This document shows positions 6,231 through 42,908 of a stretch of DNA of 42,908 nt, piece by piece (the stretch's first letter is position 1; each line of letters begins with the position of its first letter). This DNA comes from a virus, in IMG/VR virus record IMGVR_UViG_3300021247_000621, positions 1-42,908 of that record. One strand, given 5' to 3'. A program made the translations under genes and the position numbers. The notes under the pieces are model-generated. The model was given only the letters and a program-made list of their open reading frames with translations. It searched no databases and was not told the DNA's origin.

Positions 6231-7150
6231 TATATTTCAGTAATAGTATCAAAATTTAATGTTTCATCAATATCTGTTCTACCTTCTCTAATCTCATAAA
6301 GTGTTTCATTAAATTCATCTTTAATTTCATAAAGATTGTATTGTTTATAGATATTGTTGTTATTATCATAAATGGTGTATATACCAGGTGCAACCGCTTT
6401 ACTTTGATTACCATACAATGCGTGTGCTAACGTTGATATATCGTGTTCTACCATTTCAATTTCTATTGTTGTTGGATTGAAAAATGTATTGGTTAATATG
6501 ATTTTTTGTGATGGTAATCCAATAAATGGTATTGTGTTAGGTTTATTTGAGGGGGCAGAAGATGGTGTCACAGTTAAAAACATCAAATTTGTCGCTTGGT
6601 CACTGTATTGATATCTTACTGCTTTTTGTGTTGTACTCGTTAAGTTTGTTGCTACAGGAGTACAATAAAAAGATGATGTTACTAATCTATAAAAATTAGG
6701 TATTTTTTTATTGTCAGTACTGTTTATGTACTCAATTCTATATCCAACCAATCCTTGTGGTGTGAATTTATTTCTATCTGCGTTTGGAACATTACTTAAA
6801 TCGATTATAATACCTCGTACTGAAGGTAATGACGCTAAAATTCCACAATCAGTAATAGTTGTCCTTATTTGTTTTGGTCTAATATGTAGTGTGTAAATTC
6901 CTAATTCAGTGAAATCATTAGACGATAATTTTAAATTATACAACCCACCTAATAATTCGATATTAGGTGCGTTTGCATCGTCTGTAGTATCAGAATTATG
7001 ATATATTGGTGTTAATAAATCAACAGCACTTAATTTTTTTAACGTTACTTCAGATGATGAAATTCTATCTGCAGAATAATGAAAGAATATATCAACATCT
7101 TCTGGTGATACGTCTGCTGGCCTTATTGTACCAAATGTTCCTAAAGACAT
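6230..7150 (-). CDS. Predicted baseplate/tail structural protein, 306 aa, unrecognised
   Basis: The ORF begins at ATG 7150 ([20 protein letters not shown]) and ends in TAATG shared with the start of the giant fiber-like gene, so the two are probably translationally coupled. No signal peptide or membrane segment is visible. The composition is rich in Asn, Thr, Ser and β-branched residues, as in phage baseplate and fiber adaptors. I recognise no family. Its position between the outer baseplate proteins and the giant protein suggests a connector, which is an inference. A TATTTATAAATA motif lies just upstream of its start. Confidence 0.8.
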
Positions 7151-7175
7151 AAAGTTTTATTTATAAATATGAATT

Positions 7176-8300
7176 TTATTGTTTTTTTATTATAAAAAAT
7201 TCATTTTGATAAACATCTAATTCACCTACACTATCAATTTCACTCAATCTAAAGTTATTTTCCAAAACACTTTGTTTTTTTCTATCAACAAAAATGTCTG
7301 AATATACTTGTGGTTCTTCAACAAAACCTAAGAAATGTTCGTTTCTTGTTATTAATTTATTGAAAACCTCTTCTTTTGTAAAATCTGATGTAGTCCCTGT
7401 TATCATAGTATATCCATCAGGATAATCTTTATAATATAAATTGTCAATAGTATATGCCGTATAATTTCCAATACTATCAGTTCCCGTTGTAGTTCCCAAA
7501 TATTCATTGGACCCATATAATTGTAATTCCCCTAATCTACTTTTACCTATCGCCAAATATGTAAAACCTGGATTAGTGTTTCCTGTGTTATTTGTGTAAT
7601 CTAAATTATTCAAATAATTTTGTGTTTGTCCTGTTGCGTTGTCATATGCAGGGACTACAATGTTTGTGAACGTACCTAACGGGTTATAATTAAATGTATT
7701 TTGAGGTAATGTTATTATTTTAGATAAACGTTCGGTACTCCAAGGAGAATTTAAAATTATCTTTATTTCGTAAACACCATCATTTGAATATGTGTGTGAT
7801 ACTGACGGTAAATTAGTATTTAAAATACCTAAATTTACTTCTATTGATGATGTTTCCCCATCTCCCCAATTTACTGTAAAGGTTTGTTCTACAATTTTTC
7901 TAAGTTTATCAGGATTTACCGTATTATAAACAGTTACCGTACTATTCGAAATTGTGTATGTAAAATTTACTATTTGTTCAACTTGTTCTAAATCTCCATC
8001 AAATCCAACCATAACACCAAATTCATCTACTTTAGATTCTAAGAATATTGGTATATTATAAGAATTAACAGAATCTGATTCTAATATTGAAGACCACCTG
8101 ACACCATTCCATTTATAATATCCAACAGGAACACTACCTGTAACATTATAATATATGTCATTTATATTAGGTCCATTATATATACTTCCTGACCAAGGGG
8201 TTAGTATGTCATTATAATCATACCAATTTTGACTTGTCAAAGAAACTAATTTTACTTCAGGAATATTTTTCTTGAGTATCTCGTATCTATTTTTTTCCAT
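7176..8300 (-). CDS. Structural protein with a PKD-like domain, 374 aa
   Basis: The chosen start is ATG 8300, which forms a TAATG overlap with the preceding stop; a TTG two codons upstream is the alternative. Residues ~138-185 look like a PKD/Ig-like domain: VNWGDGE, then SHTYSNDGVYEIKI, which is the usual WGDG...HTY..G.Y spacing. The C-terminal half has short Tyr/Gly-rich β segments and no membrane helix. PKD domains in phage virions usually decorate baseplates, fibers or capsids and may bind surface sugars. The genomic place favours a baseplate or fiber accessory; the exact function is unknown. Confidence 0.8.
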   Translation of the reverse strand: MEKNRYEILKKNIPEVKLVSLTSQNWYDYNDILTPWSGSIYNGPNINDIYYNVTGSVPVGYYKWNGVRWSSILESDSVNSYNIPIFLESKVDEFGVMVGFDGDLEQVEQIVNFTYTISNSTVTVYNTVNPDKLRKIVEQTFTVNWGDGETSSIEVNLGILNTNLPSVSHTYSNDGVYEIKIILNSPWSTERLSKIITLPQNTFNYNPLGTFTNIVVPAYDNATGQTQNYLNNLDYTNNTGNTNPGFTYLAIGKSRLGELQLYGSNEYLGTTTGTDSIGNYTAYTIDNLYYKDYPDGYTMITGTTSDFTKEEVFNKLITRNEHFLGFVEEPQVYSDIFVDRKKQSVLENNFRLSEIDSVGELDVYQNEFFIIKKQ

Positions 8301-26120: not shown

Positions 26121-29100
26121 TTATTCCATATTAAAATATACAATACTTCCTTCCTCTAAACCTAATTTTTTCATTAATGCTTTTGACATACCAATACCGT
26201 AATTTTCTATATCAGGTCCAATGTCTATTGGTCCTGACACAACACTATTAGTTACTTGATATTTTACTTCTACTTCCTGTTTTGTTTTTGGATTAATAAA
26301 AATAGTTTTACCGTTTTTGTATTTATTAAACACATCATTAAATAATTGTATTTTCTCTATGTATATTGAATAAAATAAACAATTTTCATTATCTGATAAA
26401 TTTTTAACATCTTTCCACAATACTTTAGAACCATTTATTCTTGTTGCTATTTCCATTTCTCTGTCATCACCATTACTAAATGTATTTTTTTCTCCTCCCA
26501 TAATAACAACTCTTGCTCTTAACCATTTTGTTTGTGTTCTATTTTGTGATGAATATTTCATTAATTGTATGTTCGCGTTTTCACCATTATATGGTACACC
26601 AAATTCAGTATATCCCGCTTCATTAACTATGTTTTTATAGAAATCTTCTTCAGGTATTATTACACCAGGTTTAGTTGTATATGTGTTACCTTTATATGTG
26701 AACGAATAACCATTATCCAATATATTTCTATCAGTTTTAATTTTATTAATTGCTCTATCTTTAATCTTATCAAATAAGATTCTATATGATGATGTAAACG
26801 AATCTAATGGGTCAGGTAATGATTTATAAGGTATTCTTGTACCCTTAAATGATGTTGTAAAATTATTTGCTTTGATACTATGTGTCACTTCAGTTATCCA
26901 ATAAGAACCTTTGAACATAGGTATATTTTTGAGATAAAAGAACATAGTCGGTTGTATCATTGCATTACCGAAACAAGTAACATCACATGTATATGATGCT
27001 TGTCTATAGTAATCAAACAAACCAACATCAATATTATATGCACCCGCACCACTTTCAGTTCTTGCGATGTTTTCCATTACAACAAAAGATTCGGATGTGT
27101 TTTTCAAAGAAGATTGGTCAAGTTGAATTCCTTTAAATATAGATTGGTTTTGGTCACCAAAACTAACTTCAAATGCAACTGCTCTATTTGATTTAGATAA
27201 ATCTAATTGTTCAAAAGATTTTAGTGATGTAATTAATATTGGATTATTATTTGTTTGATAAATAGGAAATGAATCATCCGCAAATTTATATTTCTTACTT
27301 TGAACGTCAATATGTTTAGATGATTGTCCAACATATTGAATTATAATTTTAGGTGTTGACTCTTGATAATCTACCTCTAAAAATGTACCAAATATATTAC
27401 TTGCAACATTTTTAGATGGTGTAATTCTATTTTTAGTTTTTACATTATTTCCATAAAAATTAACATATGAAGGTAATGCCCTCATATCTAATCCTGAATT
27501 TTGTAAAAGAACAGAAATTACACCATATAAATTTATTTTAGAATTTTTAGTATCCCCTAAAGGTATTAATTTATCAATGTTAAGATACAATTTATCTCCA
27601 ATATCTTTATTTGCTTTATCCAAAAATAAAAATTCTTCTAATAATAATCTTTGTCCAATAGAATTACCACCAATCCATTTATCATTAAATGATTTAAAAT
27701 AATTATACAATTCTATTTTGGGGTCCTTATTATTATATCCTGATGATATTTGATTTAATGTAACAGTTTTAATTTTTTGATTTAACTTTCCAAAGTTTGA
27801 AATTAAATAATCTAAAAATAATTGTCTCCTATTTTCAAAACTTGGAATATCATTGATTGTTGCCTTTCTTAATATATTGACATCAAGATAATTCTTAAAT
27901 GTTGAAGATATCGCGGCACCCCCATTTTTTCTATACCCTGCGTATATTAGTATTATTGGTCTTAATTCTATAATATTATCTTCTTTCAATTCAATATTAT
28001 TTATTTGGAAAAATTCCCTATAATATCCATCAATATCTTCACCAAGATAAAGATTTATCAATTTTAAATTGTTGACAGTTAATTGAGAAGAATTATAAAA
28101 ATTATAAGACAAAGTATTACCCGTACTAACATCCGTGAATCCATATAATATATGTGTATCAAGTTCTTTTGGATTACCTAAAGTAATTTTAACTAAATTA
28201 GTAGTTGATAATATGTTTTTTGTTATATCTTGTAAGTTTGTTTTTTGTTTTTGTTTTAATTCTAAAATAATGTTTTCAACGTCATTAGATGTTATTAATG
28301 ATTTATTTACAGTAACAATATCTCTTAATATGTCTTGAAATTTCGTATACTTAACATTCGGAAATTTATAATCGATTGAATTGTCATTCACTCTTTCAGA
28401 TGCAAATTGTAAAAATATCTCTTCAAACTCTTCTAATATTTTTGGACTAAATGTTCCAAATAAATCAATTATCTTTCGATAATTTGTGTCAAAAGAATAT
28501 ATGTTATCAGAGTTAGTTTGTCCAGTAACATATGTTCTATGATATTGATTATATAGGGGAAAATTTAACCCATCATAATTATCATTCAGATATTCATCTG
28601 CCCATACTATTCTAAAGTTCTTTTGAGTTCCACTATCAAATGTTTCTGAATTTGTAATCAATTCCCCTGTTGTAGTATTGTCACTAGCGTTAATATTTTC
28701 ATTTCCTCCATCACATGGCAATAAAGTATATTTTTTTTCATCAGGTTTGTATTTTGAGTTATCTACAATAGATGTCCAAAAATTTAATAAATTACTCTCA
28801 GTCCTTTTCCTCATCAGTATTTTTTTATTTGTAACATTTTGAGAAAAAGATGTGTTACCTGATAACACGTCATAGTGATTGTAATCATTTACAATTTGAT
28901 GAAAAATTGCATCATAAAATGGATGTACACCAACATCAACTTGACCACTATATGTTATTGTATCAGAATTTGCGGTAAACGCAGTGAAATTAGGTGACGT
29001 TTGGTTATTATTAAAAAATATCGACCCATTGATTGGTCTTGTTTTATTATTAGGGTCTAACATATCTTCTAAAATATCAACTCCCTCAATCAGATATTTT

Positions 29101-31931
29101 TTATACCTATGATATATTGAACCCCATTTACATATCAAATGATATGGTATAAAATGTGTTGCACCAATTTCTCTGAATAACGATGAATATTTTACTTTTG
29201 ATGTGGTATTTGTGAAATTACTTAAATTTCTTAATGTATTATTTGATGGTGCATTTAATTGATAATTTATTTTATCATCTAATTCTGAGAATGGCAATGA
29301 ATTTAACAGTAAATAAGATGACGCTGCGTATTTACCATAACCATATTGTCTAAAAAAATCAAAATACAACTGTCTATGAAAAAAAGATGTATTCATGACA
29401 CTTGTTCTTGTATTATTAATTGTAATTAAATTATCAAATAAATTATTTTTATAATCCGATTTAACATAACTTATTTCTTTTACTGTCTGTATTAAAGATT
29501 CAGAAGGTACAACTTCAAACTCTATTTTGAATTTTAACTCTTCCTCAGAATAACTCGATTCATTAATATAAGACAAATATAAATTTGAATTAAATGGATA
29601 AATATTTTTTCTATATGATTCAGGTTGATAAGTTTTTAAATAATTTTTCAAATTTTCATATTCACCTGAAACAGAACTTTTATTTATTTTTATATTCTCC
29701 GTTATTTTATACGGTATATTCAAAGAATCAATCAAATATGGTAAAGTAGATAATTGGTCCAAATAATAAGGATATCTATCAATTGGAGAATAATCTTTTA
29801 AAGATTGTATTAAATCAGATGTTGTTTTTACTCTATCTTGAAGTATTGCAATTAATTCATTTTGTTCTTCAATTGCATTTTTTATATTGATAAATTCAAC
29901 ATCAGATAATTCTTTTATTGTTTTTGTATCAAATGAATCAACTAAGTTGTAAATATTCGCTCTTTCCCATATTTCATATAAAAAAGATGATGGGGATTTA
30001 TCAACATATGGAATGTTATCATTGACAATTGATATCGCATTTAGTGGTTGAATGTCGTTATTATTTTCATCATTCGGTAGTCTAAATTTAAGATTTTCTA
30101 TTCCTGTTTCTTTTTCTGCATTAGGGTCTACTTTGTTAGTCGCAACTTTAACATAATTTTCTAAAAATTCAACTTCAGGCCATATTCGAGAATCTCTTGA
30201 GTTTAATTTTGTTACTAAATCATCGTCACCTGGATACGCAACAACATTTTGTCTGTCTTTTTCAGATTGTTTTTTTATTTCGGGCCATGGGTATATATTC
30301 TTATCGTCTTTTGTTTCTTTTGATAAATTACCAATAATCTTTGCTCTCTCATCCGCAACTTTGAATGCTTTTTGATGAACTTCTTTCATTAATCGAATAT
30401 AGACATCAGCATTCGCCAATATTACTGCAAATATATTTTTTACTGTTGGCTCAAATCCAAGACCTAATTCTTTATCAAGAATTATTTTATTCATTTCATC
30501 TTCAACAAACTTTACTAATTTGTCTTTTTCATCATAAAATGTTTTTTTAATATCATTTATATCAGATATTAAGGTATCGAAATTCACTTCATATTGTCCA
30601 TTAGAATTATTTTTTCTGTAATATCTTTCACCCCACACTATTGGTTTTGAAAGAATATTACCAACAGAGAAATTTGAATTTCCTGTTTTTTTATCTTTCA
30701 TCAATTTTATGATAGCATCTGAAAATAATGAACTTGATTCAAGTTTTTCTTTATTGTTTTTAACTATCTTAAATAAAGTCTGACCGTTTTCTCCAATTAT
30801 ATTATCAGGTTTTGTTTTATCTTGTGATTTTAATTGATACCAATTTATACCTCCTTCAGTTGTAAAAGTATTTAGTAAATAAAATTTCGCCCATTCAATA
30901 CACGCTGACTCAAAATAGTTTATTGATTTTTCAAATTCATCTAATCCAACAAAAATATCGGGATTTAATCTATTATTTAAAATTTGTTTTTCCAATATTT
31001 TATCGAGAGATTGTGCTTTAAAAATAAGTTCACGTAATGTGATTACAGGAAAATTTGATTTTACTAATCCTTTTCTTTTGTATTCAGTATAAATTGACTT
31101 TAATATTGAGTACCCCCTTGAGCCTCTTGTAATTTCAACTTGTGTGTCCGTATTTTCACTATTTCCTTGAACTGAATTACTACTTTTTGTATTTTCAACA
31201 AAATACATATACGGGGCATTCTTAATTAAATCTAATGATATGTCATTTAAATATGCGAATGTGGAACCAACAAAACTTGTCTGAATGTCAAAATTTCCAG
31301 TACTGTCATTGAACTTTGTTGAAAACCTGACTAAATGAAGTCTATATCTTATTGCCTTACCATAATAACCTTTTAAGGTTAAATAAAAAATTGGCCAAGG
31401 TAAATGAAAGAATGTATTATATGGTGAATTTTCAGGAGATTCAAACAAAGTTTTACCTCTCACATCGACAAAACTTATATTTACTTGTGGAATTGAATTG
31501 ACACCTTTAATACTTATGTTTATAGATTCAATACCAAAAGATTGACCTGTTTCATCAAAATTATTTTTTAAAACCTTTTCATTGTTGGTTTGTTTTTCAT
31601 TTATATTTTTGTTATTTGTACTAACTTCTTGTTGATAAAAAGATTCGGACCACTTTGTATCATAATCACCACCATTCTGATTTCTTAGAAAATTAAAAGT
31701 ACCTTGTGCAATATTAACTAACGTATTTGTATCATTATCAGATTTCAAAATTGACCTCGGTATCAAATCTGCTTCTAAATTAACATACATTATCAAGTTC
31801 TCTTGACTAATATTTCTTGGTAATATATTACCATCTCTATCAACAACACTATTGGGGTCGATATATATTAAATTATTTTGGTCAACTTTTACTAATATTT
31901 TTTCACTATCTGATAAATTATTGTTCCCCAT
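26121..31931 (-). CDS. Giant baseplate hub-like protein, 1936 aa
   Basis: Two regions look like the tube-fold hub of contractile tails (T4 gp27 / P2 gpD type): residues ~130-235 (SINISIKGVNSIPQVNISFV, YLTLKGYYGK, FSTKFN) and ~1647-1697 (YTCDVTCFGNAMIQPTMFFY, then GSYWITEVTHSI and TTSFKGTRI). The second has the typical 'G.Y.I..V.H.i....T.f.G.R' ending of a hub domain. About 1400 unassigned residues lie between them, far beyond T4 gp27 (391 aa). No lysozyme motif of the T4 gp5 type is apparent. The start overlaps the gp53-like gene by 14 bases. Hub identity is likely; other domains are unassigned. Confidence 0.8.
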   Translation of the reverse strand: MGNNNLSDSEKILVKVDQNNLIYIDPNSVVDRDGNILPRNISQENLIMYVNLEADLIPRSILKSDNDTNTLVNIAQGTFNFLRNQNGGDYDTKWSESFYQQEVSTNNKNINEKQTNNEKVLKNNFDETGQSFGIESINISIKGVNSIPQVNISFVDVRGKTLFESPENSPYNTFFHLPWPIFYLTLKGYYGKAIRYRLHLVRFSTKFNDSTGNFDIQTSFVGSTFAYLNDISLDLIKNAPYMYFVENTKSSNSVQGNSENTDTQVEITRGSRGYSILKSIYTEYKRKGLVKSNFPVITLRELIFKAQSLDKILEKQILNNRLNPDIFVGLDEFEKSINYFESACIEWAKFYLLNTFTTEGGINWYQLKSQDKTKPDNIIGENGQTLFKIVKNNKEKLESSSLFSDAIIKLMKDKKTGNSNFSVGNILSKPIVWGERYYRKNNSNGQYEVNFDTLISDINDIKKTFYDEKDKLVKFVEDEMNKIILDKELGLGFEPTVKNIFAVILANADVYIRLMKEVHQKAFKVADERAKIIGNLSKETKDDKNIYPWPEIKKQSEKDRQNVVAYPGDDDLVTKLNSRDSRIWPEVEFLENYVKVATNKVDPNAEKETGIENLKFRLPNDENNNDIQPLNAISIVNDNIPYVDKSPSSFLYEIWERANIYNLVDSFDTKTIKELSDVEFINIKNAIEEQNELIAILQDRVKTTSDLIQSLKDYSPIDRYPYYLDQLSTLPYLIDSLNIPYKITENIKINKSSVSGEYENLKNYLKTYQPESYRKNIYPFNSNLYLSYINESSYSEEELKFKIEFEVVPSESLIQTVKEISYVKSDYKNNLFDNLITINNTRTSVMNTSFFHRQLYFDFFRQYGYGKYAASSYLLLNSLPFSELDDKINYQLNAPSNNTLRNLSNFTNTTSKVKYSSLFREIGATHFIPYHLICKWGSIYHRYKKYLIEGVDILEDMLDPNNKTRPINGSIFFNNNQTSPNFTAFTANSDTITYSGQVDVGVHPFYDAIFHQIVNDYNHYDVLSGNTSFSQNVTNKKILMRKRTESNLLNFWTSIVDNSKYKPDEKKYTLLPCDGGNENINASDNTTTGELITNSETFDSGTQKNFRIVWADEYLNDNYDGLNFPLYNQYHRTYVTGQTNSDNIYSFDTNYRKIIDLFGTFSPKILEEFEEIFLQFASERVNDNSIDYKFPNVKYTKFQDILRDIVTVNKSLITSNDVENIILELKQKQKTNLQDITKNILSTTNLVKITLGNPKELDTHILYGFTDVSTGNTLSYNFYNSSQLTVNNLKLINLYLGEDIDGYYREFFQINNIELKEDNIIELRPIILIYAGYRKNGGAAISSTFKNYLDVNILRKATINDIPSFENRRQLFLDYLISNFGKLNQKIKTVTLNQISSGYNNKDPKIELYNYFKSFNDKWIGGNSIGQRLLLEEFLFLDKANKDIGDKLYLNIDKLIPLGDTKNSKINLYGVISVLLQNSGLDMRALPSYVNFYGNNVKTKNRITPSKNVASNIFGTFLEVDYQESTPKIIIQYVGQSSKHIDVQSKKYKFADDSFPIYQTNNNPILITSLKSFEQLDLSKSNRAVAFEVSFGDQNQSIFKGIQLDQSSLKNTSESFVVMENIARTESGAGAYNIDVGLFDYYRQASYTCDVTCFGNAMIQPTMFFYLKNIPMFKGSYWITEVTHSIKANNFTTSFKGTRIPYKSLPDPLDSFTSSYRILFDKIKDRAINKIKTDRNILDNGYSFTYKGNTYTTKPGVIIPEEDFYKNIVNEAGYTEFGVPYNGENANIQLMKYSSQNRTQTKWLRARVVIMGGEKNTFSNGDDREMEIATRINGSKVLWKDVKNLSDNENCLFYSIYIEKIQLFNDVFNKYKNGKTIFINPKTKQEVEVKYQVTNSVVSGPIDIGPDIENYGIGMSKALMKKLGLEEGSIVYFNME

Positions 31932-32245: not shown

Positions 32246-35200
32246 TCAAAGTTTCAATTTATAAAAGTTTAATTTGTCTTTTACAACTATTGGTGATTTG
32301 TTTATTTTTTCTCCATCAATATATATTGCATCAGTTGATGTTACTTCATTCGATGTATCAACTGTAAATGTCAAATTTTTATTTTCAACAATTTCTTTAT
32401 ATTTTTTAAATGTGAATTTTTTTGGTTCCACTAAATTGGTAAAATATTTATCTAAAGATTTTTTCATTTTATTTATTACAGAATCATTGTATATGATTTT
32501 ATCAGTAAAAATATTTATTATTTGTGATTTTTTATCCTTAAATAATGTTTTTAATATATCAGATATATCATTAGTTGTAAATGTTGGATTATTAAAATCT
32601 ATACTACTATCCAAATCTTCATAAAATTTTGTTGAATTTTCTTTGATATAATTTATACCATACTCATATTCATCATATAATAGATTTTTTGTAAATCCAC
32701 TTAATGTTACTTCAGTTCCTTTTTTTGTATTTGTTACTTTATCAGAATTAAGTAAAAAGTCTTTCCCGTGTTTTACAATGAAATTGACTTTATCCATAGA
32801 TTTTATGACCTCATCTCTTGATTCCTCTATTGCAAATATTTGAGAATTATTTGTTATGTCATCAAATATTATAGACAATTCTGTTTCTAAATATTTGTAT
32901 AAATAATCGTTATCCGTTTTACTTATTAAGTTTGCATCCATGAATTTATCAAAACCAAATATTGTAGATGGACTTGAATTTTTTAATGTATTGATAAATT
33001 GTCTTTTTAATATTTGAGTGTATACAAATAACTCTTTACCTTGAGGATATATTCCAACCAAATCAAATGATTCAGATGGTGAAGAAATACTATCTGTAGA
33101 TGTCCATACATCATATGTTTTAATTATTCTATAAGTGTTTGATAAAATCAAATTACTTATTTTTTTACCATAAAATGGTACAATTATATTGTACGCAGTC
33201 TTATAAATTTCAAAATAATTTTTGATTTTACTATGGACATCTATAATTAATTTTGAATATGTCAATGAATTATTATCAGTAGAAATATCACCAATATATT
33301 TACCGTCTCTCAATTCATTACCCTTATTCGAGTTATCAGGTTCAGGTGTTCTATTATCTCTTTTTTGTAAGTCTTCTAAAAATTCTTTAGTAAAAGTATT
33401 TGCATCTTGACCTCCAATCATAGTATTTGTCGGTATCGACCTTTCATCATAAATTTCTGTATTTGCATAATAATTTGAAGATAATGCGTTTTGTAATCTT
33501 TCAATTGGTTTTTCTAATCCTTGTCCACCCAAAAATGACATTTGTAAAGTAACGGTTGCAATCATCGGTTGTAACCCGATTCCTTCAGGATTATAATCCC
33601 ATGTTGAGTCATCGTATGATATTTGAGCATCTCTAATGACTACCTTAGAATGATAGAAATCACCTACACGTAATATACATATTGGTGGTGGACCAAATGT
33701 TGTGTTTCTTGCATTCAAATCATTTGTATCACTTACACCTTTTATTGGTAATGTGTCTCCAGGTCTTAAACATTGATGTATAAATGTTAATCTCGCATTT
33801 AATCCTTCAGGAGTTGTTGAATGAAAACCAGGATGAAAATATTTTAATTTTTCTCTTAATGAATTAAATATTACTGGCGATGATTCATCTAATCTTTTAA
33901 AATAATAACATTCCGATAATGTTTTCATTATGATTCTTTTCATAATGTCTATCGGTGGTTTTTTTAGTTTAGTCGGAATTTGAGTTGTACCGTCTACAAT
34001 AATACTTGTTGGTCCAATTACTTGTTGTGTTGCCGCTGTTTCATTTACTATTGGATTTATTTTATCTGATTTCACACTATAAGTTATATCTACATCAGAT
34101 TTTCTACAACTAAATGAAATTGGTGAAATAATACCTAATCTTGGTATTTTTTTAAAATCCCTATTAACACAATTAGTATCAAGAGAATTAGACGAATTTC
34201 CTGTTGAAGTTTCACCAACATTTTTGATTGAAACAGTTATCACGGTATCATAATCGTATCCAAAATCTTTTCTCAAAGAATAATCCTCATCAACAGAAGG
34301 ACTACCAGGTGTGTCTGTCCATCTTATTTTAGGTGGTGTTTTTCCTTGCTTCGTTATTTTTTCAAATATATCTAATAATATACTATACGACCTTCTTGAT
34401 GATAATTTTTGATTATAATCTAATTTATCTAAAGACGATGTTGTTGAATATATTTTTATCTTAATATTTTCTGCTTTACCTGATTCTAATTTTTCTTTCA
34501 ATTTAGTTAATTTAGAATCATATTCAGTGTAATTTTTTTCTGCATTTGTAAAATACTCATCTAATTTGTTTACTTGATTGGTGATTTTTGAAACATCAAC
34601 AATTGAATCTTGACCATAAATCTGATTTCTGTCATTTTTAGCTTGAACTAAATCATTACCACTGAAAACAGAATTTAATTCAGTTAAATCTGATTGTAAA
34701 TTGTTTTTCCATTCTGTTTTTTTAGAAATATAATTATTATATAAATTACTATATTTTTGAGTAGCAATTTCACTTGGGTCACCGATTGGTTCTTTATTAT
34801 CAAAATATAAAGTAATTTTAAGTGGTTCACCAACAGTACTACTACCTTCTTTTAAAGATGTTGAATTAGTGACAGCGGGAACATTTATATTTGTAACTTC
34901 CCCAAAATTAGTTTTTACATTATTTACAACATCGGGTTGTACATTTTTAGAATCATTTAAATATTGTTCAATATATTTAATATCTGTTGGGTCTAATGTA
35001 CTGTATCTTCTAATCAAATCATAGAAATCTAATGTTTCACATCCAGCAAAAAATGCATTAATATAATTATCAGCTTCTTCATCTGACATATTTGAGAAGA
35101 ATTCTCTCGTTAATAAATTCAATATACTTGGGTGGTCCACAACAATTTTGAAACTTAATGTACCACTTCTCGATGTGTTGTTATATGTATATATCGGTTC

Positions 35201-37045
35201 TGGTCTACCTATAAAAAGATTTTCATCCCATTTTGCACTATTACTTTCTGAAATTTTCAAGTCATATGGTGGAAACCACATTACTCTACCTCCATTTGGT
35301 CCTCTTTCACAAACAGGTAAATCTAAAACAGTAAAACCAGGTGAATTAGATGTTTTCCATGCTAAGTTTTCTATTGAAAACATGTACTTTTTTGCATAAA
35401 AACTTTTATTGTCTTTGTCTGTACCAAATGGATAGTTTTGAAATATATTAGATGAATTGTCAAAACTCTTTTTACCATTAGACATAGGGGCAATATTTAA
35501 ATTCCATGGGTCAGATACTACTGTTCCATCAAATTTTCTATTATTCCCACCTTTCTTCATTGTGTCAGAATAAGACAAATATGGTCTGTCTTTTGTCCAT
35601 GTTCTACAATATTCAACACCTGATTCTACTCCTGAAAATTTATCTACGTATTTTATAGATGAACCTCTTGATAAAAATTTTTCACCTTCTTTGAATATTC
35701 TTGAAGTTTGGTCAATCACATTACCAATATGTGACCTTGCTTCACCACCTTTAGGCATACTATCTAACAACTCTTGAGTAAATCCTAAAATAGAATCCTC
35801 TCTAAACTCATATTGTGTCGATAAAGATTTTGTCAGATTTGATGATTGTCCATTATATTCTTTATTGTTTTCACCTAATTTATTATTTGAATTCGTACTA
35901 ATCCAAGTCAATTTACCACTAATCTCACCACCATCACCTAATGATTTTATTCTTTCAAATAATCTTGCTTGTGTTTCATCAAACATGACACTTAAATAAT
36001 AGTTACTTCTAACTATATTTCCATTCATGTCTGACATAGAATTTAATACGTTATTTCCTCTATCATCACCAATATATGCAACACCTTCAGGTGCTTCTGT
36101 ACCTAAAAACTCTTTTACCCCTTGTGCTGCTTTTTCAATAAAATTGAATATTTTAGATGTATTTTGAGACCTCGCAGTCGTAGTATAATTTGGTGCATAT
36201 TTAGATTTTGATAGTAAATCAAATAATTGTTTTTTCTGACCACTACCACTATATTCAATTAATAAATCTGATGGTTTTCTTGTCTCTAAAGGTCTTCTTT
36301 GTACACCTAATAAAGATAATAACGCACCTGATGCATCTTGTAATGTTCTACCAACTTCAGTATTTGCAGTTTTTCTTCTTTCTGTTTGTCTATTAGGATT
36401 TGTCAGATAATCACCAGGAATCTCCGCCCAAGGAAATTCTAATCCTGCAACAGTCTGTACAAAATCAATACCTTTACCTACAGGTGTTTTTGCAACAGTA
36501 ATTGAATTATTAGACTCAACTAAAGGTTCTCTACCTGTTACAATATTAGTTGCTGTCGCTAAATTTCCTTGTAACGCATCTAATAATCTAATTCTACCTA
36601 ATGTAGATTTTAATAAATTTTGTTCAATTCTCGAATATACAGGACCTTTTTGGTTTTTATCACGTATATATGATGCTGCGAATTTAAATAACTCAGATTC
36701 ATTTTCATAATTATCATTACTCATGATACCCACCAAATTATACTGTCCATTTACAAAATAAGGTGTTCCATCATAATACATAGATAAATTTGCTCTCCTT
36801 GGAATTGTATCTAAAATATCCTTAACAAAATATTCTGACGGTTTGAAAACGTTATTTGTTTGTGGAATAGATAAATCTCTTTGTCTATCTGTATCAACCG
36901 CTCCTGGGTCAATATTAGAAAACTGACTTAAATTTTGTAATCTATAATTTTGTGCAGTAAAAGTTTGTGGTCCATTAGGTGCTTGTAATGTTCTGGATAA
37001 AACAAAATCTCTAAACTGTTTAGTTGTATCAAAATCTAATGGCAT
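32246..37045 (-). CDS. Large central tail/baseplate protein, 1599 aa, with a tube-initiator-like segment
   Basis: Residues ~1118-1168 (PPICILRVGDFYHSKVVIRD, then IATVTLQMSFLGGQ) follow the pattern of tail-tube or tube-initiator proteins (T4 gp48/gp54, contractile injection tube family), just after RPGDTLPI. Another β-rich region is near ~590-690 (PVCERGPNGGRVMWFPPYD, then SGTLSFKIVVDHP). A coiled-coil-like stretch lies at ~770-880. There are no membrane helices. It lies between the tape measure and gp53/hub genes, the usual place for hub or tube-initiator proteins. I infer a hub-tube connector, but family assignment needs a structure-level search. Confidence 0.75.
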   Translation of the reverse strand: MPLDFDTTKQFRDFVLSRTLQAPNGPQTFTAQNYRLQNLSQFSNIDPGAVDTDRQRDLSIPQTNNVFKPSEYFVKDILDTIPRRANLSMYYDGTPYFVNGQYNLVGIMSNDNYENESELFKFAASYIRDKNQKGPVYSRIEQNLLKSTLGRIRLLDALQGNLATATNIVTGREPLVESNNSITVAKTPVGKGIDFVQTVAGLEFPWAEIPGDYLTNPNRQTERRKTANTEVGRTLQDASGALLSLLGVQRRPLETRKPSDLLIEYSGSGQKKQLFDLLSKSKYAPNYTTTARSQNTSKIFNFIEKAAQGVKEFLGTEAPEGVAYIGDDRGNNVLNSMSDMNGNIVRSNYYLSVMFDETQARLFERIKSLGDGGEISGKLTWISTNSNNKLGENNKEYNGQSSNLTKSLSTQYEFREDSILGFTQELLDSMPKGGEARSHIGNVIDQTSRIFKEGEKFLSRGSSIKYVDKFSGVESGVEYCRTWTKDRPYLSYSDTMKKGGNNRKFDGTVVSDPWNLNIAPMSNGKKSFDNSSNIFQNYPFGTDKDNKSFYAKKYMFSIENLAWKTSNSPGFTVLDLPVCERGPNGGRVMWFPPYDLKISESNSAKWDENLFIGRPEPIYTYNNTSRSGTLSFKIVVDHPSILNLLTREFFSNMSDEEADNYINAFFAGCETLDFYDLIRRYSTLDPTDIKYIEQYLNDSKNVQPDVVNNVKTNFGEVTNINVPAVTNSTSLKEGSSTVGEPLKITLYFDNKEPIGDPSEIATQKYSNLYNNYISKKTEWKNNLQSDLTELNSVFSGNDLVQAKNDRNQIYGQDSIVDVSKITNQVNKLDEYFTNAEKNYTEYDSKLTKLKEKLESGKAENIKIKIYSTTSSLDKLDYNQKLSSRRSYSILLDIFEKITKQGKTPPKIRWTDTPGSPSVDEDYSLRKDFGYDYDTVITVSIKNVGETSTGNSSNSLDTNCVNRDFKKIPRLGIISPISFSCRKSDVDITYSVKSDKINPIVNETAATQQVIGPTSIIVDGTTQIPTKLKKPPIDIMKRIIMKTLSECYYFKRLDESSPVIFNSLREKLKYFHPGFHSTTPEGLNARLTFIHQCLRPGDTLPIKGVSDTNDLNARNTTFGPPPICILRVGDFYHSKVVIRDAQISYDDSTWDYNPEGIGLQPMIATVTLQMSFLGGQGLEKPIERLQNALSSNYYANTEIYDERSIPTNTMIGGQDANTFTKEFLEDLQKRDNRTPEPDNSNKGNELRDGKYIGDISTDNNSLTYSKLIIDVHSKIKNYFEIYKTAYNIIVPFYGKKISNLILSNTYRIIKTYDVWTSTDSISSPSESFDLVGIYPQGKELFVYTQILKRQFINTLKNSSPSTIFGFDKFMDANLISKTDNDYLYKYLETELSIIFDDITNNSQIFAIEESRDEVIKSMDKVNFIVKHGKDFLLNSDKVTNTKKGTEVTLSGFTKNLLYDEYEYGINYIKENSTKFYEDLDSSIDFNNPTFTTNDISDILKTLFKDKKSQIINIFTDKIIYNDSVINKMKKSLDKYFTNLVEPKKFTFKKYKEIVENKNLTFTVDTSNEVTSTDAIYIDGEKINKSPIVVKDKLNFYKLKL

Positions 37046-37095: not shown

Positions 37096-39417
37096 TTATA
37101 CCTTAGCAGCGGTTTGAGTTGATAAATAACTATTTTCTTCTATAGTTGTCATCTCTTCAAATAAGTTTGGATTCTTATATAGATATCTTGCAAATGTGTC
37201 CATAATAGCAGGGGACTTAACTAAATGTTCATGTTTGTGTGTATGTTCAACAGACAGTTTATTATCTTTAGATAATTTTTCACTTAAACTTGCAACATTA
37301 CCATCTAATCTTGTTAGTGATGTATTTAAAATTTCGTAATTAGTGTTTTTTGACATAATCGGTTCTAATGACGCGATATTGCCTGTAGATTTATTAGTGT
37401 TAATTTGTGATACTATAGAAGTATTTAAATTTAAGAAATTTTTTATGTCTGTATTAATTTCCTTTAAATAACCATTTGATTGTTTATTTTCAGAAGAAAT
37501 ACTTGCCATTGTCCCACCTAAATTTTTTATCTCTTCATTATATTTTGCGAACCCGTCTAATGATGATGGGGTCATTTTATTCAAGGAAGATAAATCAGTA
37601 TTAGTACTTGTTTTCGGTATTTGTGATTGTGGTGTAGATGTTTTTGGTTCCTGTATACCTTCTGTAGACTTATTCTGTAAATTTAGAACATCTTTAGCAC
37701 CATTCGCCCATTTTTCAATTAAACCATAAATCTCTTTTTTCGGGTCAATTTTTTTAAGTTGTTCATCATCAAAAGTATTAAACTTTTTAGATAATTTACT
37801 TACTGCATCAGAAATAGAATCACCTTCTTTTAATTTAACACCCATCATCTTTGCAGCTTCTCTAACCGCATCGTCAGTAATGTCTCCAATTGCTCTACCA
37901 CCAATATTTCTCATACGAGCAACAATCATACCCATCATATTTTCAATACGAGTTATACTTGTATATTGATTATTGATGACATCCTCTGGTGTTTTTTTAC
38001 TTATATCGTCTCTATATTTTTTTAATTGTTCAATTTGACTTTGATTCAAATCTTCTAATGCAACTGATGTACCTCCAAAAAATTCTTGTAATTCCTTAGA
38101 ACCACTTAAATCTATAACCATTTGACCATCTTTCATTTTTGCTATATTGGTTATAAATTCTTTTTCTTCATCACCCACAACTAATCCTGCTCTCATCATT
38201 GCAGATGCAGCTGCACTTTTTTCTGCGGTAGCAATTGCACCGTTTGCCAATTCTTGATATGAGACACCTAACTGAGAAGCCATTTCTCTTGCATACCTCA
38301 AATTGACACCTGTAATTTCAAATCTTTTTTGTTCTGTGTTATATGTTGCTAAATTTCCTGCCGCTTTAATTAAAGAATCTTGTAACCCTTCAACATTGTT
38401 TGTTGCCATATACATTAATTTCAATGGGTCATTGAAATCACCTATAGCACCACCAAGTACTTGTAAATTCGCAGATAATTCTATAGCACCTTCAGGACTC
38501 ATTACTTTATCTGCAATCTTGAATACTTCATTCATGGACATCCTGAATTCGGTAGATTTTTGAATCATTCTTGACAAACCCGCTACACCATTCTGAAATC
38601 CGTACTCATTTAACTTCCCAATATTCTGTGTCAATTCTTTAGTAACAGATTGAGCACGTAACCCTAAAGATACCGAACTCCTACCCACTTCTTCAATTCC
38701 TTTCATTGCGTCAACAGCACCTATACCAATTTTTTCAAATGCAGGAAGTAAGTCTGCCAATTCCTCAATATTTGTCAAATAAGCAGCACCAATCTTACCC
38801 GCCATTTCCCATGTTTCTTCATTCAATGTATAAAAACGACCTGTTTTTACAATCAAATCACCTGCGGTATTTGCTAATTGTTGGAAACTAATTCCGTATT
38901 GTAATAATTTAGGATTAGTATCTGTTAACGTTTTACGATATGCTTCTGCAAATTCAAAATTCAATCCTGTATCCTTATTAATTGCAGTTCTTAATGCGGA
39001 TTGTTCACTATAATAAAGTTCTAATTGTTTAATTGATTGGTCTTTTAATGCGGATAAGAATCCTCTCGCAACATCACTTGGATTAGTAAAAATAGACAAA
39101 CCACCGTTAGGTCCTGTCATAATATCTTTTAACGTATTAAAAATACCATTTAAATCAGTTGTTTCACTTTGTAAATTACCAAATTGAGCGCTACTCCTAA
39201 ATGGAGAAAAAATATCACCTGTTGATGAAAAGGAAGTAGAAGTCTGTGAAGAATTTCTGGTAGAATTTTTTTTATTCCACTCTTTATAAACCTCTTTGAA
39301 ACAATCAGGATTATTGAAGTCGTATCCCTCTGCTTTACATGCATTAAGATAATCCGTTTCATTTGTATAACGGGTCACTAATATCGAAGCTTTAATTCCT
39401 GTACCTGTACATGCCAT
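37096..39417 (-). CDS. gp29: Tail tape measure protein
   Basis: 773 aa (T4 gp29: 590 aa). After a short Cys-containing start and a Ser/Thr-rich linker, most of the chain is long Ala/Leu-rich helix. Examples are SLGLRAQSVTKELTQNIGKL and AMATAEKSAAASAMM-like stretches near ~390, with Gly/Ala-rich repeats such as VLGGAIGDFNDP, typical of tape measures. Thr/Ser/Asn-rich regions follow and the C-terminus contains HTHKHEHLVK, a His-rich patch. It sets tail length and fills the tube. Position right after the gp26/gp51-like pair is the usual place for a tape measure gene. It is preceded by TATTTATTTGT. Confidence 0.85.
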   Translation of the reverse strand: MACTGTGIKASILVTRYTNETDYLNACKAEGYDFNNPDCFKEVYKEWNKKNSTRNSSQTSTSFSSTGDIFSPFRSSAQFGNLQSETTDLNGIFNTLKDIMTGPNGGLSIFTNPSDVARGFLSALKDQSIKQLELYYSEQSALRTAINKDTGLNFEFAEAYRKTLTDTNPKLLQYGISFQQLANTAGDLIVKTGRFYTLNEETWEMAGKIGAAYLTNIEELADLLPAFEKIGIGAVDAMKGIEEVGRSSVSLGLRAQSVTKELTQNIGKLNEYGFQNGVAGLSRMIQKSTEFRMSMNEVFKIADKVMSPEGAIELSANLQVLGGAIGDFNDPLKLMYMATNNVEGLQDSLIKAAGNLATYNTEQKRFEITGVNLRYAREMASQLGVSYQELANGAIATAEKSAAASAMMRAGLVVGDEEKEFITNIAKMKDGQMVIDLSGSKELQEFFGGTSVALEDLNQSQIEQLKKYRDDISKKTPEDVINNQYTSITRIENMMGMIVARMRNIGGRAIGDITDDAVREAAKMMGVKLKEGDSISDAVSKLSKKFNTFDDEQLKKIDPKKEIYGLIEKWANGAKDVLNLQNKSTEGIQEPKTSTPQSQIPKTSTNTDLSSLNKMTPSSLDGFAKYNEEIKNLGGTMASISSENKQSNGYLKEINTDIKNFLNLNTSIVSQINTNKSTGNIASLEPIMSKNTNYEILNTSLTRLDGNVASLSEKLSKDNKLSVEHTHKHEHLVKSPAIMDTFARYLYKNPNLFEEMTTIEENSYLSTQTAAKV

Positions 39418-39433
39418 ACAAATAAATACAATA

Positions 39434-39604
39434 TTAATTATTTTCTAACTCAAGTATATACTCAATATAGTATCTCCTGATATAGATTGGCATACTCATT
39501 ACATCACCATATGTAAACCCTCTTTTAACGAGAAATAAAATTTCAGATAACTGATTTTTCTTATACTCCGTAGAAAACGCGAAAAAATTCAACCCCAAAG
39601 CCGA
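39434..39604 (-). CDS. gp51-like overlapping frame, probably made by +1 frameshifting from the gp26-like gene
   Basis: This frame opens after a TAA at 39607-39605 and runs to TAA at 39436-39434. It encodes FFAFSTEYKKNQLSEILFLV and then KRGFTYGDVMSMPIYIRRYY, a helical segment with the 'G-F-x-Y-x-D-V-x-x-MP-x-x-x-RR' pattern I associate with gp51-type assembly chaperones of T4-like phages. It has no ATG start before residue ~35 of the frame; only TTG at 39598 or 39592 could start it independently. The gp26-like frame crosses it at TTT TTT CGC, where a +1 slip would produce a 291-aa fusion. Position before the tape measure gene supports a chaperone role. Confidence 0.65.
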   Translation of the reverse strand, partial: SALGLNFFAFSTEYKKNQLSEILFLVKRGFTYGDVMSMPIYIRRYYIEYILELENN

Positions 39605-40310
39605 TTACAAATTCGACTTCTTCTCCTGATGGGGCGATTGTTTTTCTTCTCAAATTTAGTCCAGGTTTATTATCATTAATAAATTTTCTAAAACTTTGAG
39701 AATCTGTTATGGGTAAATTCTGAATGAAATTTCTAATATTCATTTGGTCTCTTACACCAGCAACACTTTTAATCATCATCTCCATCCTTTTAGTAACTGT
39801 TGGAGGAATATCAGGACCATTCCAATTTTTTGTCATATCATCAAGTTCTTTTTCTTGTTTTTTATTCAAAAACTTGAATGTTATGTCAATATTAGATTTT
39901 GGCATTACGTATTTATATTCTCCGTTTGAATCTGCAATTAAATTAAAATCCTTTAATTCCAAATTACTTAAATCAATTACATGTTCAAAATCTAATTCTG
40001 TTTTTGGGTCAACTAATTTTATTTTATATTCACTTCCAAAAGCAGTATTTCTTAAAAATATTAAAATACTTTCTTTGTCCTCATCAACAATATCTTCAAA
40101 ATTAATATCCCTATCTAATATTTTTCTTCTTAAAAGTTCTTCAATAATTGAATTATTATTCATTAAATTAGGTGCAGACAATACATTTTCATCCGCTGCA
40201 GTTAAATAAGCAACTCTCACTGATTTTTTACCATTTGTATAGTGTATTCCTCTACTTGGTAATTCAACTACATCATACGCAATTGTTGGGTCTATCCTTA
40301 ATTCTTCCAT
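39561..40310 (-). CDS. gp26: gp26-like baseplate/tail assembly protein, 249 aa
   Basis: The N-terminal half shows the T4 baseplate-protein (PF12322, gp26) pattern: VVELPSRGIHYTNGKKSVRV, then AYLTAADENVLSAPNLM and IIEELLRRKI. T4 gp26 is 208 aa. In many contractile phages this type of protein acts like the G tail-assembly chaperone, binding the tape measure. Here it precedes the tape measure gene directly, and its 3' end overlaps the gp51-like frame, so two products (249 aa and a ~291-aa fusion) are likely. Its leader AAATAAAATAATATGGAAGA is nearly the same as that of the gene before it. Confidence 0.85.
   Translation of the reverse strand: MEELRIDPTIAYDVVELPSRGIHYTNGKKSVRVAYLTAADENVLSAPNLMNNNSIIEELLRRKILDRDINFEDIVDEDKESILIFLRNTAFGSEYKIKLVDPKTELDFEHVIDLSNLELKDFNLIADSNGEYKYVMPKSNIDITFKFLNKKQEKELDDMTKNWNGPDIPPTVTKRMEMMIKSVAGVRDQMNIRNFIQNLPITDSQSFRKFINDNKPGLNLRRKTIAPSGEEVEFVIGFGVEFFRVFYGV
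39579..39590 (-). promoter_or_regulatory. Candidate ribosomal frameshift site (TTT TTT CGC)
   Basis: In the gp26-like frame the codons are GAA TTT TTT CGC. After the second TTT (39584-39582) tRNA-Phe can move +1 onto TTC, a better match for its GAA anticodon. The next in-frame codon, CGC, is expected to be rare in this AT-rich genome and could cause a pause. A -2 slip would give the same downstream frame. The gp26-like frame ends only six codons after the site. Confidence 0.5.
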
Positions 40311-40316
40311 ATTATT

Positions 40317-40736
40317 TTATTTTTTAATTGTTTTTTCTACTTCCTTATTAACTTCACTATATAATGTCATAGATTCGGCATCAGCAATGATTTTTATATC
40401 ATTCATTTGTAACTCACTATTAGCATAAGACTGTTTTCTACTAAAATTAATACCTTTGACTTTGAATCTTAAACCACTTATCGCATCACCAACAGGGTCT
40501 AAATATTTTATTACAACATCTGTGATATCAAAAATACTTTTAGGATTGAATGAATAAATACATGTTTCATAGAATCTTGTTATAAAAATGATATCAGTAC
40601 CTTCATTATATAATGAATACTCCTTGAATGAATACGAAGGAATGTCACTACCTATTAATTCAATAATATACCTGTTTTCCATTAATGGTTCAATTAATAT
40701 ACCAGAACGCATTATATCAATGTCTTTATTTTCCAT
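40317..40736 (-). CDS. Small tail-tube-like protein, 139 aa
   Basis: The sequence ENRYIIELIGSDIPSYSFKE, then DVVIKYLDPVGDAISGLRFK resembles the tube fold of gp19 (compare NRFILRFPSS and IKVQFKDPIGPS). This suggests a shortened tube paralog, for example a tube terminator or a minor tube protein. The similarity is by eye and weak, so gp48/gp54- or gp3-type roles are possible. It lies 6 bases before the gp26-like gene, downstream of the gp19 terminator. There is a polar Lys-rich C-terminus and no membrane segment. Confidence 0.7.
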   Translation of the reverse strand: MENKDIDIMRSGILIEPLMENRYIIELIGSDIPSYSFKEYSLYNEGTDIIFITRFYETCIYSFNPKSIFDITDVVIKYLDPVGDAISGLRFKVKGINFSRKQSYANSELQMNDIKIIADAESMTLYSEVNKEVEKTIKK

Positions 40737-40807: not shown

Positions 40808-41296
40808 CTAGTAAACCTGAATACAACGGTCCATACGAAGAGATGCATCAATAGTTGCTAATTCATCTTGACTATAGTTCAAATCACCAAAGTTCAAGTT
40901 AGTTAAGAAACAACCTTGAAGAATCCATTTTTCAACTACAACACCTGTTGGGTCAAGCATTTCAAGTTCAACATCTTTCTTGTATCCCGCAGCATAACCC
41001 ATTCTACCTGTTACTGATTCTGCATGTAAACGGAACCATTCCATTAACGCTTGAGATGCAGAAGGACCAATAGGGTCTTTGAACTGTACTTTTATTTCTT
41101 CCCAATCAAATCTACCAGCAACATACGTTGATGTATTTAAGAAAGGAATTTCAACTGATTTTATTTTTGCAGTTGGTCTTGATGTTGAAAACACATACCA
41201 CTCATTTATACCAAGAGAAGAAGGGAATCTTAATATAAATCTATTCTTCCTTTTTGGTTCATATGGAAGAGGCATTTTCATTAGTAAATCGGCCAT
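40808..41296 (-). CDS. gp19: Tail tube protein gp19
   Basis: 162 aa, almost the same as T4 gp19 (163 aa). Diagnostic parts are the N-terminal KRKNRFILRFPSSLGINEWY, TSRPTAKIKSVEIPF, a loop with GRFDWEEIKVQFKDPIGP, and the C-terminal strand pair LQGCFLTNLNFGDLNYSQDE and LRMDRCIQVY. It polymerises into the inner tail tube on the baseplate. It follows the sheath gene after a 303-bp gap with a promoter-like element and is followed by a terminator, so it is probably a separate, strongly expressed unit. Confidence 0.95.
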   Translation of the reverse strand: MADLLMKMPLPYEPKRKNRFILRFPSSLGINEWYVFSTSRPTAKIKSVEIPFLNTSTYVAGRFDWEEIKVQFKDPIGPSASQALMEWFRLHAESVTGRMGYAAGYKKDVELEMLDPTGVVVEKWILQGCFLTNLNFGDLNYSQDELATIDASLRMDRCIQVY

Positions 41297-41599: not shown

Positions 41600-42908
41600 T
41601 TAGATATTTTCAAAAGATGCTCCCGTTGGAGTAATAATAAACTCAACATCTATGAATTCAAGTGAACGAGTTGGTTTAATATATATTTTACCCCTCAAAG
41701 TGTTTGAATCAATATCTTCTGGGTCATTAGATACTGTAACTCTGAATTCGGTAAGACCTCTTTCTTTTTTAATTGATTCCAAAATTGGATTTACCAATCT
41801 CAAGAACTCATTTCTTACTTGTTCATCGTTTTGTTCAAACAATAACCTAATAGCTACAGCAGAAATCAATTTTCTTGCTCTAAGTAACAATCTTCTGACA
41901 TTCATTCTATCAAGTGCAGATTCTTTGACTTGAAGAGTTTTGTTACCCCAAATGATTGTTCCAGTATCCGCAAATGTCGCAATTGGATTGATTCTTGCTT
42001 GATACAAATCATCTCTTTCATCCAATGTAAGTTTTTTGTACGCTTTTACTGAATTAACCAAACCTCTTTGATAACCAGCAACTGCAAACCAAGGGAATGA
42101 AATATTATCTGTTAATGCAATATTTCTCACAACTTCACAAGTAGGTGGAACATATATCAAGTTACTACTGTCTTGGTCTCTTACTTGAATCCAGGGCCAA
42201 TATGTTGCAGAATAGTTAGAATCAACATCTAAAGTTTCCAAATCAGAAATAACTTCTTGGGATGTTTCTCTATTTTTAGATGCAATGATGTATAATGAAT
42301 CTGCTCTATCTGATTCAACCATATCTATCGCCTGTTGAGTTAAAGAACTATGGTCAGAGAAGTTGATACCAGGAGTTGCAAAAACGTTAATGTCAATCGC
42401 TTCAGGATTTGCGAAGGTTTGAATACCTTGTAAATATGAATAATAGTCGGAATTTCCTGTTGTATCGTCAAACACACCACTTGTAGCACTGTTTGATGAA
42501 TGATTAGATACATATGAGGTCTTACCAAAGATGTAGTTATCTGTGAATGTCCTTACATCTCTGTATATGTCCCAACCATCAAATCCACCTGCAGTTACAA
42601 ATGTGAACTTCCTGTATCCGATACTATCTAAAAGACCCTTATTAGTACCTTCTAAGTCATATGGTGTAGTTTCAAACTCATACCCTGTTGGAGTATTACC
42701 TGTCAATGTAGAGGCGTTTGTGGACAAATGGAAACCATGTGTGACACCTGTTGAACCTACTCCTTTATATTTCAACAAATCTTTATCAAATCTATATCCT
42801 AATTGACTTGACATACCTAAAGAAACCTTTTTTACTTTATCTCCATTAGATACTACAGGAGTACCATCAGGAAGATATCTAACGACATCACCAGCGGACA
42901 AGTAATCT
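41600..42908 (-). CDS. gp18: Contractile tail sheath protein gp18-like (N-terminus outside the window)
   Basis: 435 residues are visible; the frame is open past base 42908, so the apparent TTG start at 42901 is not the true start. The C-terminal part is typical for gp18: ARINPIATFADTGTIIWGNK, then LDRMNVRRLLLRARKLISAV, and the final domain IYIKPTRSLEFIDVEFIIT. Earlier FPWFAVAGYQRG is the conserved 'aG..rG' segment. T4 gp18 has 659 aa. The sheath contracts to drive the tube into the cell. It is followed by a strong terminator. Confidence 0.95.
   Translation of the reverse strand, partial: DYLSAGDVVRYLPDGTPVVSNGDKVKKVSLGMSSQLGYRFDKDLLKYKGVGSTGVTHGFHLSTNASTLTGNTPTGYEFETTPYDLEGTNKGLLDSIGYRKFTFVTAGGFDGWDIYRDVRTFTDNYIFGKTSYVSNHSSNSATSGVFDDTTGNSDYYSYLQGIQTFANPEAIDINVFATPGINFSDHSSLTQQAIDMVESDRADSLYIIASKNRETSQEVISDLETLDVDSNYSATYWPWIQVRDQDSSNLIYVPPTCEVVRNIALTDNISFPWFAVAGYQRGLVNSVKAYKKLTLDERDDLYQARINPIATFADTGTIIWGNKTLQVKESALDRMNVRRLLLRARKLISAVAIRLLFEQNDEQVRNEFLRLVNPILESIKKERGLTEFRVTVSNDPEDIDSNTLRGKIYIKPTRSLEFIDVEFIITPTGASFENI

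Follow-up and report, generated by a model that had tools for sequence, protein, structure and literature searches.

A probable programmed +1 frameshift in a gp26-type tail assembly chaperone gene of a T4-related virus

Analysis of a 42,908-nucleotide stretch of viral DNA (IMG/VR record IMGVR_UViG_3300021247_000621, hereafter the window) indicates, from sequence comparison, that a gp26-type gene and a second, overlapping reading frame very probably make up the tail assembly chaperone gene of a contractile-tailed virus related to T4, one that is read with a programmed +1 frameshift. The product of the first frame is a member of the T4_baseplate family (PF12322), scoring 28.8 bits against a gathering cut-off of 24.5 and aligning with positions 11-200 of the 219 in the model. 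The second frame, which the initial annotation had described as gp51-type and as overlapping the end of the gp26-like gene, is indeed open on the minus strand from 39604 to a stop at 39434-39436 and lies in the +1 frame relative to that gene. At the proposed site the minus strand reads GGG GTT GAA TTT TTT CGC GTT TTC TAC GGA GTA TAA, so that the TTT TTT CGC motif, the +1 path into the second frame and the 0-frame stop six codons on were all located where they had been described, and reading +1 at this site gives a fusion of 291 amino acids, the length that had been estimated. The features of the locus are as follows.

39561..40310, minus strand: short form, a 249-aa gp26-type putative tail assembly chaperone gene (TAC-N, lambda gpG analogue); PF12322 E 1.2e-6, phrog_150 E 8.1e-13; single copy in relatives
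39594..39596, minus strand: GGG codon in a GGGG run, four codons 5' of the slip codon; conserved, possible stimulator
39582..39584, minus strand: slip codon TTT in the 0 frame, the second TTT of TTT TTT CGC; would re-pair as TTC after a +1 slip
39579..39581, minus strand: A-site codon CGC, rare; a shifted ribosome would leave CGC and read GCG next
39561..39563, minus strand: 0-frame stop TAA, six sense codons past the slip codon
39434..39580, minus strand: +1-frame segment, 48 residues and a stop, putative tail at the C-terminus of the long form (lambda T / gp51 tail analogue); kept across 200 non-redundant relatives, with a codon-position pattern and an hhalign match to the gp51 C-terminus
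39437..40310, minus strand: predicted long form, a 291-aa fusion (TAC-NC, lambda gpGT / T4 gp51 analogue), computed by reading +1 at TTT/C
37096..39417, minus strand: putative tape measure gene, 773 aa, named from position and length
40317..40736, minus strand: 139-aa gene between tube and chaperone, without a profile match
40808..41296, minus strand: tail tube gene, gp19-like; phrog_4542 E 9.8e-27
41600..42907, minus strand: tail sheath gene, gp18-like, cut by the end of the window; phrog_23 E 5.3e-52

The gene order sheath, tube, gp26/gp51, tape measure had been put forward from the letters of the window. Profile searches bear out the sheath and the tube, and the order has to be amended by the 139-aa gene that stands between the tube and the gp26-like gene; in Xanthomonas phage phiXF1 a "tail tube initiator" is annotated at the corresponding place. 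The 773-aa gene is a putative tape measure gene by its position: it gave no profile hit and no similarity to the annotated tape measure of Flavobacterium phage immuto, and an annotated tape measure gene follows the chaperone gene in both immuto and Listeria phage LIS04. Two very long genes come after it in the window (32246-37045 and 26121-31931, 1599 and 1936 aa), the former with only a weak OmpA-like match (E 0.013).

Relatives of the locus were collected from IMG/VR with four protein or profile queries, together with named phages, and removal of gp26 proteins at least 90% identical left 210 non-redundant loci. In 200 of these a closed +1 extension of 30 aa or more follows the gene, 7 are cut by contig ends, and the 3 without such an extension are LR756511, RAS14 and P-SSM2. 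Of the 250 loci where both frames close, the +1 frame continues beyond the gene stop for 30 aa or more in 247 and the other frame in 44, the chance level of an open +1 extension of this length at internal positions being 6%. An in-frame TTT followed by T or C lies within the overlap in 200 of 200 loci, against 13% expected from the rest of the same genes; this motif was deliberately sought, so that the count tests a prior expectation and does not amount to a blind discovery, and the loci share descent and are therefore not independent trials. The presence of CGN or TGG as the next codon in nearly all loci is a feature that was not sought beforehand. The comparison of homologous loci suggested by the initial annotation thus shows that the frames still overlap, that the site is still TTT-C (or TTT-T) and that the direction is still +1. 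A separate gp51 gene, which would have spoken against the frameshift, was not found in relatives from the window's own clade, where 14 of 14 contigs of 118-298 kb carry one copy of the family, as against two in T4.

Downstream of the 0-frame stop, substitutions between moderately divergent pairs fall at the first, second and third +1-frame codon positions at 0.28, 0.16 and 0.49, and this codon-position constraint shows, at the level of sequence, that the second frame codes for protein. Fused relatives match phrog_150 without a break across the junction (residues 15-281 of locus L007 align with profile positions 17-271). All 43 of 43 relatives examined by profile match phrog_150, and 9 match phrog_634, a baseplate hub assembly catalyst family. 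The predicted fold of the fusion from a CGG-class relative (L071; pLDDT 88, pTM 0.74) renders the tail as three helices, and the predicted viral structures that it matches are those of baseplate hub and hub assembly proteins; no relative was found in the PDB by sequence or by fold. A single-sequence fold of the window's own gp26-like protein was poor (pLDDT 37) and was set aside. In the public records of immuto, Bacillus phage SP-15 and Microcystis phage Mel-JY01, the +1 tail is a stray small hypothetical ORF (L016:4854-4964, L026:3812-3931 and L018:4728-4964, respectively), and the long chaperone has thereby been missed.

The slip codon is TTT in 199 of 199 non-redundant relatives, although TTC accounts for 27% of Phe codons in the remainder of these genes, and the codon after it is CGN in 73 of the 199 and TGG in 113. 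CGC appears once in the approximately 3,350 codons of six window genes, at the slip site. Within the CGN class, CGN occupies the A site in 73 of 73 loci compared with about 5 per 1000 codons elsewhere; its third base varies (T, C, G, A), and AGA never takes its place, although it is the usual arginine codon (28.5 per 1000, all CGN together reaching about 5). Of the 73, 65 retain a GGG codon four codons before the slip codon; elsewhere GGG has a frequency of 4.6 per 1000 codons. Part of the site constraint can come from an overlap that encodes two proteins at once; the TTT TTT and GGG codons are still conserved upstream of the slip codon, where the +1 frame is not needed. Internal ribosome-binding elements are known from release factor 2 frameshifting, and the GGG codon might mimic such an element; since hosts related to Flavobacterium make little use of them, we treat this as a lead only. 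No consistent signal of downstream RNA structure was found in either class (mean z -0.3 for CGN and -0.8 for TGG). The sites combine a P-site UUU, a following Y and a slow or rare A-site codon, and a particular tendency of UUU_Ynn to undergo +1 shifting has been noted in bacteria (PMC5009743). A possible variant, TTC TTT CCC TAA, is seen in phiXF1 (L021, near 4630-4645), where a +1 shift could occur on UUU_C or on CCC_U beside the stop; the tail there is divergent, a candidate homologue.

The initial annotation had allowed the slip to be either +1 or -2, and the comparison favours +1. A -2 slip of the kind known from Mu (PMC5009743), here from TTT to an earlier TTT within the run of six T, would produce the same fusion with one extra Phe, giving a predicted junction ...VEFFFAFSTEYK with three Phe in place of ...VEFFAFSTEYK with two, and the T6/T7 run permits full re-pairing for it in the window and in most relatives. 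At ten non-redundant sites that keep the fusion frame, however, -2 re-pairing is impossible and +1 fits all of them; examples are AGC TTT CTT in the isolate immuto, TTC TTT CGT in Streptococcus phage GXN1, TTC TTT CGG (L099) and GAC TTT CTT. These ten sites argue for +1 if one mechanism serves the family, and a rare A-site codon is typical of +1 shifting, so we consider the -2 route unlikely. RNA polymerase slippage on the T run, which would alter the frame in the mRNA, draws some plausibility from the T6 or T7 runs at most sites, yet six T residues are short for such slippage, the frame relation is kept at sites where no run exceeds TTT or TTTT, and a ribosomal cause is indicated by the constraint on the CGN or TGG codon that comes next; we judge it highly improbable. 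That a homopolymer error in sequencing or assembly has split one continuous gene can be regarded as refuted, error-prone as homopolymers are, because the same frame relation recurs across independent samples (200 non-redundant contigs) and in the isolates immuto, Mel-JY01, SP-15 and Rhodothermus phage RM378, and is kept at sites without a homopolymer.

The second frame might instead be a separate overlapping gene, translated from a TTG start or by re-initiation after the stop. The claim that it has no normal start codon is only nearly right for the window, where no ATG or GTG precedes the conserved part and TTG codons are present at 39598 and 39592, and it is the relatives that decide the matter. 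Between the opening of the frame and 12 codons past the slip, 51 of 199 relatives have no ATG, GTG or TTG; in 49 of 186 the open +1 frame before the slip codon is at most 15 nt, and in L007 a TAG stands directly before AAT TTT TTC. Start positions are not conserved among relatives, and T4 gp51 carries the tail fused. Set against this are the cyanophage relatives, in which an invariant ATG lies 5 nt after the stop and gp51 is annotated as separate in Prochlorococcus phage P-SSM2. We rate a separate gene in the window as less likely again than a -2 slip, though ahead of polymerase slippage, and retain the programmed +1 frameshift as the preferred reading.

Comparison with T4 helps to explain what the two frames correspond to. 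Both T4 gp26 and T4 gp51 match PF12322 (E 8.8e-64 and 3.9e-52), and the extra length of gp51 is a C-terminal tail, which aligns with the segment coded in the +1 frame. The hhalign match of the tail to the gp51 C-terminus has an E-value of 6.9e-6 with cyanophage gp51 included and 3.2e-4 without, while other stretches of gp51 score 0.01 or worse, the best of these already reaching into the tail. By these comparisons gp26 and gp51 of T4 are paralogues, gp26 being the short form and gp51 the short form plus the tail; judged in this way, T4 gp26 is the counterpart of the window's unshifted product and the whole of T4 gp51 that of the window's predicted fusion. The proposal that gp26 and gp51 are the G and GT equivalents of this lineage is upheld as to a short and long pair and has to be corrected in one respect, as the second frame encodes only the C-terminal tail of gp51. 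T4 and the window share a protein family and differ in that T4 has two genes without a frameshift, divergent and without overlap, and the window has one gene with a predicted +1 shift. In the tree, T4 gp26 and gp51 group together (96/87), beside the cyanophages with their -1 arrangement and apart from the +1 group, a placement of the T4 pair for which the long branches call for caution. Both proteins are listed as hub assembly chaperones by Leiman et al., and gp51 is essential for T4 assembly, with its function unknown, and is absent from the particle (PMC3004832).

The arrangement in cyanophages differs from that of the window in direction. P-SSM2 gp26/gp51 belong to the same family, with the Phe-Phe junction and the TTTTTTCGN string in common, and phrog_150 spans both frames in that phage. 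In the cyanophage relatives (cyanophage-like contigs L290-L369, and P-SSM2 6495-7390 as L031/L044), the tail is in the -1 frame at 60 of 60 unique loci, at the same TTTTTTCGN string; with the invariant ATG that follows the gp26 stop, re-initiation is possible there as well as a -1 shift. The tail is likewise -1 in the jumbo Stenotrophomonas phage RAS14 (L020:3917-4977), where AGT TTT TTT ATC offers a perfect T_TTT_TTT slip, and a scan of IMG/VR with its copy found no relatives. In the huge phage LR756511.1 (L019, about 459860-460700) the tail is a separate ATG-started ORF directly after the gp26 stop, possibly a third arrangement without a fusion.

The frameshift-encoded G/GT chaperones of lambda were reportedly described by Levin (1993) and by Xu, Hendrix and Duda (2004). 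Lambda has overlapping frames between the tube and tape measure genes and a short chaperone accompanied by a C-terminally extended one (PMC5009743); the window has its overlapping frames between the tube gene and the putative tape measure gene, with a corresponding pair of predicted products. The lambda shift is -1 at a slippery heptamer, whereas the tail in the window is in the +1 frame, so that the locus would work like lambda with a different direction of shift; neither a sequence relation to the lambda chaperones nor a solved-structure match was found for the window protein. A UUU_CGN slip with a slow A-site codon is described for influenza A PA-X, at UCC_UUU_CGU, and for Amalgaviridae, which are RNA viruses of eukaryotes with unrelated proteins, only the site being alike (PMC5009743). 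Listeria phage PSA is a case of +1 frameshifting in phage structural genes, at CCC_UGA and CCC_UCC, and differs from the window in that its sites are proline codons in capsid and tail tube genes, with no chaperone involved (PMC5009743).

The arrangement suggests the following mechanism. Most ribosomes would end at the TAA and release the 249-aa short chaperone. With tRNA-Phe on TTT in the P site and a rare CGN (or, in the sister class, TGG) as the next codon, an opportunity to slip would arise, and in some ribosomes the tRNA would re-pair one base forward on TTC or TTT and continue in the +1 frame, adding the 48-residue helical tail of the long chaperone. The short and long forms may then coat the tape measure protein, with the tail recruiting tube subunits, as for lambda gpG/gpGT. 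That the shift occurs in this virus, the rate at which it does so and the chaperone role of its products are what we infer from the homology and from the conserved site.

The tail assembly chaperones of T4-like phages were reportedly identified by Vladimirov, Gautam and Davidson (Virology 2022). Later papers cite that study, one for the occurrence in some T4-like phages of a short gene together with a long, fused one (PMC10885494), another for -1 signals of the poly-T type in other such phages (PMC12846349). The roles of T4 gp26 and gp51 as tail assembly chaperones and the poly-T -1 sites of some T4-like phages are thus already published; the literature searched, which included few subscription papers, yielded no description of the UUU_CGN/UUU_UGG +1 class. 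Taken together, we lean toward a joint reading in which one family reaches its short and long forms by three routes, with the junction kept at the Phe-Phe motif: a +1 shift at UUU_CGN/UUU_UGG in a large clade of mostly uncultivated viruses; in cyanophages, either a -1 shift or re-initiation; and in the T4 family, gene duplication combined with in-frame fusion. In this reading the +1 class would be widespread and undescribed, and A-site codons that are rare or served by a single tRNA would drive it. The sequences compared here directly support gp51 as the long and gp26 as the short form of a single chaperone, and illustrate how a duplicated gene pair can replace a frameshift-encoded one. The bacterial-virus +1 sites gathered in this way, of one type (UUU_CGN, UUU_UGG), form a very large natural collection in which the part played by rare A-site codons in driving +1 slipping can be tested. 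The comparison further corrects the annotation of hundreds of viral genomes in which the long form has been missed or called as a stray small ORF.
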